Shown here: positions 26,645 through 27,161 of the stretch, piece by piece
How the letters are laid out: each line of letters begins with the position of its first letter
Numbering within the stretch: the first letter of the stretch is position 1
Assembly: GCF_010748935.1 (NCBI RefSeq)
Contig: NZ_CP048796.1
Span: 3,909,001-3,973,000, forward strand
Direction of reading: 5' to 3'
Source of the DNA: Providencia vermicola
GTDB taxonomy: Bacteria > Pseudomonadota > Gammaproteobacteria > Enterobacterales > Enterobacteriaceae
Length of the DNA stretch: 64,000 nucleotides
Program-made: the position numbers and the translations under genes
Notes under the pieces: model-generated
Told to the model about the DNA's origin: nothing
Databases searched by the model: none
Seen by the model: the letters and a program-made list of their open reading frames with translations, nothing else

Positions 26645-27161
26645 ACTTGACCCTCCTGGTCATTATTTACAATTCAATAATAATTGCTGAAAAATGTGCT
26701 TATTTTCTCAATAACCTTATTCTCATTTGTTTTTATTAAAACTTATTATTAATTAATATATGAGTTATACATGTAAAGTGTATTTTAATTTCTTTTAATA
26801 ACAACAAATTGAGTTGAAATCAGCATACAATTCTCTTTTTTTGCTGAATAATATTTATATATTATTAGTAGTTATAACTATAATCATTAATATGCCATTT
26901 CCCTCAGATAACTATAAGTAGTTAGTTTTTATTTTCAATATGTTAGATGCACCCACAAATATATTTGCTAACGCTTTCTAATATTTCACAAAAATAGAAT
27001 CCCTTTCATAAAACTGAATTTTTAGAAAAAATTAGAAATATTTTTGGGAAATTTCTGTTATTTTATTTCCAATAACAGGACGATTGCAGTGAATGTATCA
27101 CAAAGTCCTGTTAGATGTACTACTAACTCTACATGATTCTGAGTAAAAAAAGGACTAAAAA
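26645..27161. promoter_or_regulatory. A+T-rich control region between C-like and Ner-like genes
   Basis: 517 bp with no credible gene and very high A+T. It contains several inverted repeats: a 12-bp palindrome TAGTTATAACTA (26869-26880), AACTA-N4-TAGTT (26910-26923) built of the same half-site, and an 8-bp pair AACAGGAC (27074-27081)/GTCCTGTT (27105-27112). By analogy with phage Mu, the divergent repressor and ner promoters should lie here. The sites are seen; the binding proteins are inferred. Confidence 0.55.
27074..27112. promoter_or_regulatory. Inverted-repeat candidate operator upstream of sfsB
   Basis: AACAGGAC (27074-27081) and its exact complement GTCCTGTT (27105-27112) are 31 bp apart centre to centre, about three helical turns, and 50 bp before the sfsB ATG. 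The spacing would put two protein units on one DNA face. Confidence 0.5.

Follow-up and report, generated by a model that had tools for sequence, protein, structure and literature searches.

The 517-bp region that separates the leftward gene C2 from the rightward gene sfsB on the chromosome of Providencia vermicola raises the question of whether a cellular genome carries the control region of a phage-type switch, and which of its inverted repeats would belong to which regulator. We analysed it within a stretch of 64,000 nucleotides, hereafter the window. A reading of the letters alone had singled out three inverted repeats between a C-like and a Ner-like gene, namely a perfect palindrome and a spaced pair of the same AACTA/TAGTT half-site (sites 1 and 2) and a separate 8-bp pair just before sfsB (site 3), and had proposed that two operator types serve two different regulators. 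All three repeats are present in the window at the predicted positions, and PF02316 and HTH_35 matches confirm that the flanking genes are C-like and Ner-like, respectively (Table 1).

Table 1. Genes, repeats and predicted promoter elements of the C2-sfsB region (coordinates in the window).
Feature	Position	Strand	Remarks
C1, Mu-repressor-like regulator, paralog of C2, 120 aa	25788..26150	-	PF02316 58.2 bits; PF07037 YfeC-like 31.8 bits
C2, Mu-repressor-like regulator, 115 aa	26297..26644	-	PF02316 45.4 bits (cut-off 23.3); phrog_7148 transcriptional repressor 2-114
Site 1, perfect palindrome TAGTTATAACTA	26869..26880		Exact in 1/24 Providencia; not conserved
Site 2, TAACT-N6-AGTTA, candidate SfsB/Ner operator	26909..26924		Rank 1 of 324; spacing as in Mu
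Predicted C2 promoter, TTGAAA-N16-TATAGT	26911..26938	-	Overlaps site 2; best of 4 promoter-like matches (10/12)
GAAA/TTTC boxes, candidate C-protein sites	27024-27028, 27034-27038, 27047-27051, 27052-27056, 27066-27070		Flank predicted sfsB promoter
Predicted sfsB extended -10, TGTTATTTT	27056..27064	+	Invariant in 24/24 Providencia
Site 3, stem of 8-9 pairs	27073..27113	+	At predicted 5' end of sfsB transcript
Site A, GTTAG-N8-CTAAC, candidate SfsB/Ner operator	27110..27127		~51-52 bp before sfsB
sfsB, Ner-like regulator, 90 aa	27162..27434	+	PF13693 HTH_35 4.8e-38; solved Mu Ner 1neq E 5.7e-22

C1 and C2 are 47% identical to each other and align over nearly their full length with the phage repressor family (176 positions, of which approximately the last 50 are absent here). 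Against PF07037, the family of E. coli YfeC/YfeD (cut-off 22.9), C1 passes with 31.8, Mu c barely passes and C2 stays below with 20.5. SfsB passes PF13693 with 129.4 bits (cut-off 25), and scores 121.6 bits with the equivalog model NF007670, below its curated cut-off of 150. Among solved structures, SfsB has Mu Ner and EnrR as relatives, and the C proteins have MuA and Mu c. In the window ispB precedes the locus, C1 and C2 read leftward, sfsB rightward, and mdh follows; a PF02316 repressor gene and a Ner-family gene thus diverge from each other, as in a Mu-type C/Ner pair. SfsB/Nlp proteins of Enterobacterales share both the HTH_35 winged HTH and the ispB neighbour with SfsB of the window. The description of the gene (nlp) as a ner homologue dates back to 1989, according to a reference in the accessible part of PMC11960120, and among the literature matches listed (titles and abstract starts, with partial journal coverage) no paper addresses a role of sfsB beside a C-like partner. 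The genome of the window gives three SfsB/Ner-like against two C-like matches, and so contains two more Ner-like genes without a Mu-type C at the threshold used.

Gene families, gene order, positions, conservation and motif counts were read directly from the sequences of two overlapping samples. The genus comparison comprised all 24 Providencia genomes found, each with the C2-sfsB region. The order C1-C2-sfsB is seen in 24/24 loci (C1 being cut by a contig end in L007), ispB is present at 21 of the 24, the other three ending before it, and mdh was seen in 17. In six Providencia loci (L008, L013, L014, L015, L019 and L022) there is no mdh within ~1.2 kb after sfsB and something may intervene, and in L003 the matches to ispB, C1, C2 and sfsB are broken up between reading frames, suggesting sequencing error or decay. 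Among 149 family genomes, 98 had at least one sfsB-like match (E up to 0.001) and 90 a C-like match. In the 30 best of these 98 (L025-L054), a divergent C gene lies upstream of sfsB in 27; the three genomes whose sfsB has no adjacent C have their best C-like match at another place, with 32-35% identity to C2. Loci L055-L084 and one further set were fetched via their C proteins, so that C-sfsB adjacency is not countable from them. Identical sequences were merged in the site A, box and promoter counts, and distinct-row totals differ between tallies (e.g. 21 vs 22 for Providencia) because rows were merged over different lengths. Five loci (L045, L046, L047, L051 and L052) carry an extra C-like gene on the downstream side of sfsB.

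None of the three predicted repeats is beyond chance when taken alone, since shuffled sequences produce such palindromes and pairs often: at least one 12-bp perfect palindrome occurred in 37% of 1000 dinucleotide shuffles of the 517 bp, and a 9-bp pair with a gap of up to 30 in 26%. As a class they are in excess, with three 12-bp perfect palindromes in the region (P=0.009 for that number, 1000 dinucleotide shuffles) and 12 inverted repeats with 6-bp arms and gaps of 0-8 against 4.3 in shuffles (P=0.012). Site 1 had been expected to be conserved in relatives that keep the three genes. It is exact in a single one of the 24 genomes, that of the window, which we put down to chance; its arms rank 183 of 328 placements across the 24 rows, and we rejected it as an operator.

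The spaced pair, AACTA-TAAG-TAGTT at 26910-26923, is real and conserved in the genus, but its conserved core is not the one predicted. The pair extends to TAACTA/TAGTTA at 26909-26924, and TAACT-N6-AGTTA is exact in 17/24 and within one mismatch in 23/24 Providencia, making it the best conserved of 324 placements in the drifting part of the region, whereas AACTA-N4-TAGTT is exact in 4/24 and ranks 4 of 326. A full CTAACT-N6-AGTTAG occurs in 11 of the 24 rows and is absent from the window; no co-variation at site 2 was found among the compared rows. By likeness of sequence, site 2 is a candidate Ner-type repeat, with TAA half-sites and the spacing seen in Mu. A counterpart of this repeat near -238 to -255 occurs in Moellerella and Arsenophonus, as a one-mismatch match at -255, and in three Morganella, as TAAGT-N6-GCTTA; one-mismatch matches are not rare by chance in the AT-rich gaps of these three genera, and were kept because the distance is shared. 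The predicted C2 promoter that overlaps site 2 has a -10 that is poorly conserved in other Providencia, and the promoter scan of the region, with 4 matches against 4.1 in shuffles, is uninformative alone.

The conservation check proposed with the original prediction therefore came out in favour of site 2 within the genus and against site 1, and for site 3 it held as pairing only (see below). Two classes of operator for two regulators are still plausible, but AACTA/TAGTT and AACAGGAC/GTCCTGTT are not those two: the conserved elements are TAAC/GTTA repeats, at site 2 and at 27110-27127, together with GAAA/TTTC boxes that flank the predicted promoter of sfsB.

The repeat at 27110-27127 (site A), which the prediction had missed, is the strongest common element across the compared loci beyond the genus, with matches in the sfsB upstream regions of Providencia, Proteus, Photorhabdus, Serratia, Yersinia and Morganella. 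In 85/101 distinct loci, 7 or all 8 of the arm letters are matched near -52; 70 of these 85 matches stand at -51 or -52, and one (L048, at -58) is probably due to chance. This includes 21/21 distinct Providencia rows, 58/63 other short-gap loci, 6/14 other long-gap loci and 0/3 loci without C (L049, L050 and L054). Weaker forms (6 of 8 letters) occur in Xenorhabdus and L077, and exact forms span C-sfsB gaps of 177 to 585 bp. The pair table of site A was made from the 85 rows that reach the limit of 7 arm letters (16/101 fall below it), so that the invariance of TTA/TAA in it is partly circular; co-variation amounts to a trace in the outer pair (P 0.02), with none in the inner pairs. The polarity of the half-sites is opposite, GTTA..TAAC at site A and TAAC..GTTA at site 2, and one dimer therefore cannot read the two alike. 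A search for a wider regulon in the window's own genome gave no enrichment with either of two patterns (3 sites vs 18 in the control, and 7 vs 7). In L061, L072, L079, L080, L081 and L048, whose gaps measure 529-647 bp, a repeat like site A with one mismatch lies ~136-150 bp from the C start, away from sfsB, as if an insertion had intervened.

For comparison we took the c-ner early control region of phage Mu (NC_000929, 864-1098, 235 bp). The window shares with it the divergent C and Ner-type genes as well as TAA-type repeats before ner, which in Mu lie at -51 and -64. The repeat at -51, CTTAGTTAAATTGCTAAC, stands at the offset of site A and is identical to its common form at 13/18 positions (P 0.0005 for this offset and 0.022 for any position within the 235 bp), and the one at -64, CTAAGT-N6-ACTTAG, has the spacing of site 2. 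The Mu sequence itself was read for this purpose; in Mu, the rightward ner and leftward C promoters face each other. Mu also carries TTTTC boxes on the C side, and the window has GAAA/TTTC boxes around the predicted sfsB promoter. Unlike in Mu, sfsB is followed by mdh and not by a transposase, so that the phage transposition genes are missing from this position; there are two tandem C-like genes of 115-120 aa instead of one of 174 aa, the gap measures 517 bp rather than 235, and the leftward -10 in site A has been lost in Providencia.

The half-site type also follows the recognition helix of Ner in a set of phages, 13 of whose 15 listed ner regions were readable (two Klebsiella records, in which the ner frame was not located, were left out). 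TAAC/GTTA/CTAAG repeats begin at -68 to -38 in the phages with the helix TLANAL (Mu, Shewanella MuM16-2, Vibrio 1.028.O and Vibrio ZX4290), which is also that of SfsB, whereas AGCTAC..GTAGCT dyads occur at ~-50 in 4/5 phages with T[LV]KNAL (D108, SfMu, PhiR68 and martha), SuMu (TLKNAL) being the exception without such a dyad. Operators of the D108 type thus resemble site A in position (~-52 before ner) and differ from it in half-site and helix (GAGCTAC with TLKNAL vs TAAC with TLANAL here). Neither dyad type is found in the four phages with other helices, B23 (TLAHAL) and the Chromohalobacter, Mannheimia and Pasteurella phages, of which the Mannheimia phage has a different dyad. These phages are not independent, as D108 and SfMu are near copies here and so are the Vibrio and Shewanella regions, and independent cases are correspondingly fewer. 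The correspondence between recognition helix and half-site type in phage Ner offers a straightforward way to test which sites SfsB, CdeR and EnrR-like regulators recognise. CdeR of Dickeya is reported to share 64% identity with Nlp and 59% with Ner and to act on T3SS through c-di-GMP (accessible part of PMC11960120), and EnrR of Edwardsiella, a sequence relative of SfsB with a solved structure, is reported to displace H-NS (accessible part of PMC10899749); in the accessible text of these two papers, no paired C-like operator region is mentioned for CdeR or EnrR.

We assign the TAAC/GTTA repeats to Ner/SfsB mainly on the basis of the phage repressors: apart from Mu, whose c protein served as a control and matches PF02316, the TLANAL phages (three in number) encode CI/S24 repressors that give no match to this family. 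That the repeats are instead operators of the C-like proteins, acting in C autorepression, is unlikely in our judgement. Such an assignment fits the overlap of site A with the predicted C promoter in compact loci, as well as the absence of site A from the three loci without an adjacent C gene, but it conflicts with the presence of TAAC/GTTA repeats before ner in those same three phages and with the TTC-rich motif of the related E. coli YfeC (accessible part of PMC8464067). It is more improbable still that site A is nothing but the leftward C promoter with its flanks and that the dyad is accidental. The middle of site A does read as a minus-strand extended -10, TGNTATAA, in 63/65 distinct short-gap loci and in 5/14 other long-gap loci, yet this element is missing from 22/22 distinct Providencia rows, while GTTA-N10-TAAC is kept in 24/24 within a block that is conserved as a whole in the genus. 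Since Providencia lost the leftward -10 and kept the arms, the dyad is separable from the promoter, and Mu carries a similar dyad at the same offset.

The second conserved class lies around the sfsB promoter. A rightward extended -10, TGNTAW, is present at -116..-92 in 90/101 distinct loci with an upstream C gene. The five GAAA/TTTC boxes of the window compare with 1.75 in shuffles (P 0.003), and across the compared loci such boxes reach approximately three times the shuffle number around the rightward extended -10, with P of 0.05 or less in 43/63 short-gap rows and 24/27 rows with gaps of 490-600 (gaps of at least 600 were left out). As the three loci without C retain such boxes (2.67 vs 0.66 in shuffles), a neighbouring C is not necessarily the protein that they serve. 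The E. coli YfeC motif consists of TTC-rich inverted repeats according to the accessible part of PMC8464067, in whose main text the word sfsB does not occur; this motif is in line with GAAA/TTTC boxes as sites for C, given that C1 matches the YfeC family. The window also has two direct copies of TTTCAYAAAA at a distance of 20 bp (26984-27013), on the side of the sfsB promoter that faces C2; nearly all Providencia rows keep them.

Site 3 consists of AACAGGAC at 27074-27081 and GTCCTGTT at 27105-27112, extends to a 9-bp pair at 27073-27113 and overlaps site A with its right arm. As sequence the arms are found in 1/24 Providencia and rank 135 of 140; letter counts missed their conservation because they change together. 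Over 8 pairs in 18 distinct 41-mers (L006, with 42 nt, was left out), 93.1% of cells are paired, against 36-56% when the arms are slid, and 10 cells are changed on both sides, a number reached by 3/500 shuffles; the covariation score is reached by 1/500. Pair 7 is G-C in 10 rows, A-T in 7 and G-T in 1, and pair 8 is A-T in 10, G-T in 4, G-C in 2 and unpaired in 2. The numbers of pairs with a double change (182/500) and of further pair types (254/500) are not above shuffles. As related sequences inflate such counts, we take the co-variation as support and not as proof. The 8-bp pair that had been proposed as an operator type thus survives as a co-varying stem, but not as conserved letters. A CRP-like GTGA..TCAC at 27089-27101 was set aside, its spacing being 5 instead of the 6 of the CRP consensus.

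The dyad formed by the arms of site 3 is conserved and may most simply be read as a 5'-terminal stem of the sfsB transcript. Its 5' arm begins at the transcript start expected, near 27071, from the sfsB extended -10, and in the window the stretch alone folds at -13.4 kcal/mol (z -3.8; whole leader z -1.95). Could this stem, setting the stability or translation of sfsB, be what is conserved in the region, the protein sites being secondary? Its co-variation in the 18 Providencia rows and its place at the predicted start speak for this, but the exceptions in pairs 5-8 are as often A-C as G-U (9 each), so that an RNA stem is not favoured over a DNA dyad, and two of the pair counts given above do not exceed shuffles. 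The stem is, moreover, missing or different in many other genera (a Photorhabdus counterpart is TAACAGGT/ACCTGTTA), has no Rfam match up to E 1, and leaves site 2 unexplained. We regard a mainly RNA-based explanation as rather unlikely.

We therefore favour, with somewhat more confidence than doubt, the view that this is the control region of a chromosomal Mu-type C/Ner switch without phage genes, in which SfsB would act on the TAAC/GTTA repeats and C on the GAAA/TTTC boxes. Our confidence goes no higher because the two repeats have opposite polarity, site A is absent from the C-less and from eight other long-gap loci, and the boxes persist without C. From the conserved motifs we infer the promoters, the protein at each site and the sign of regulation as follows. 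SfsB most likely binds the TAAC/GTTA inverted repeats, at site A wherever it is kept and, in Providencia and some close long-gap relatives, at site 2 as well, and would there repress leftward C-like transcription and damp rightward sfsB. The C-like proteins most likely bind the boxes around the sfsB extended -10 and would repress sfsB. In compact relatives site A contains the predicted leftward C promoter, which would face the sfsB promoter as in Mu; with the -10 in site A gone, C2 transcription in Providencia probably starts near site 2, where there is a weaker candidate at the level of motifs, with a predicted start in the window just left of 26911.

How C control may have come to lie there is suggested by the C genes themselves. 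In a tree that rests on few columns and has long branches, C2 of Providencia and Moellerella groups with the distal C genes, and the proximal C genes of Proteus, Photorhabdus and Xenorhabdus form a separate clade, so that the old proximal C gene seems to be absent from the long-gap Morganellaceae, the group with the second repeat near -238 to -255. We only infer this loss, as no protein relic of a proximal C gene was found in the C2-sfsB gap (best E 0.37), and the idea that the long gap is a decayed proximal C gene was set aside for that reason. A hidden gene in the gap was rejected too, since L001, L013 and L011 have no ORF of at least 40 aa wholly inside it. C control in Providencia may have moved to the position of site 2.

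Repeats placed much as in Mu and kept in several genera suggest that a phage-type switch has taken up permanent residence in the host. Much more tentatively, and with the balance of our judgement against the full scenario, a complete Mu-type switch may have been captured between ispB and mdh in an ancestor of many Enterobacterales and kept as a host circuit, possibly bistable, with proximal C loss in Providencia and its neighbours then moving C control to site 2. If the preferred reading of a chromosomal C/Ner switch is true, a phage decision circuit is resident, together with its operators, in the host across several genera, and natural changes such as the lost leftward -10 in Providencia and the missing proximal C separate the parts of the switch. 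Just before the C2 start, the minus-strand RBS AGGAGG lies inside a small inverted repeat, TGACC-CTCCT-GGTCA at 26648-26662, which has a shorter form in many other Providencia.
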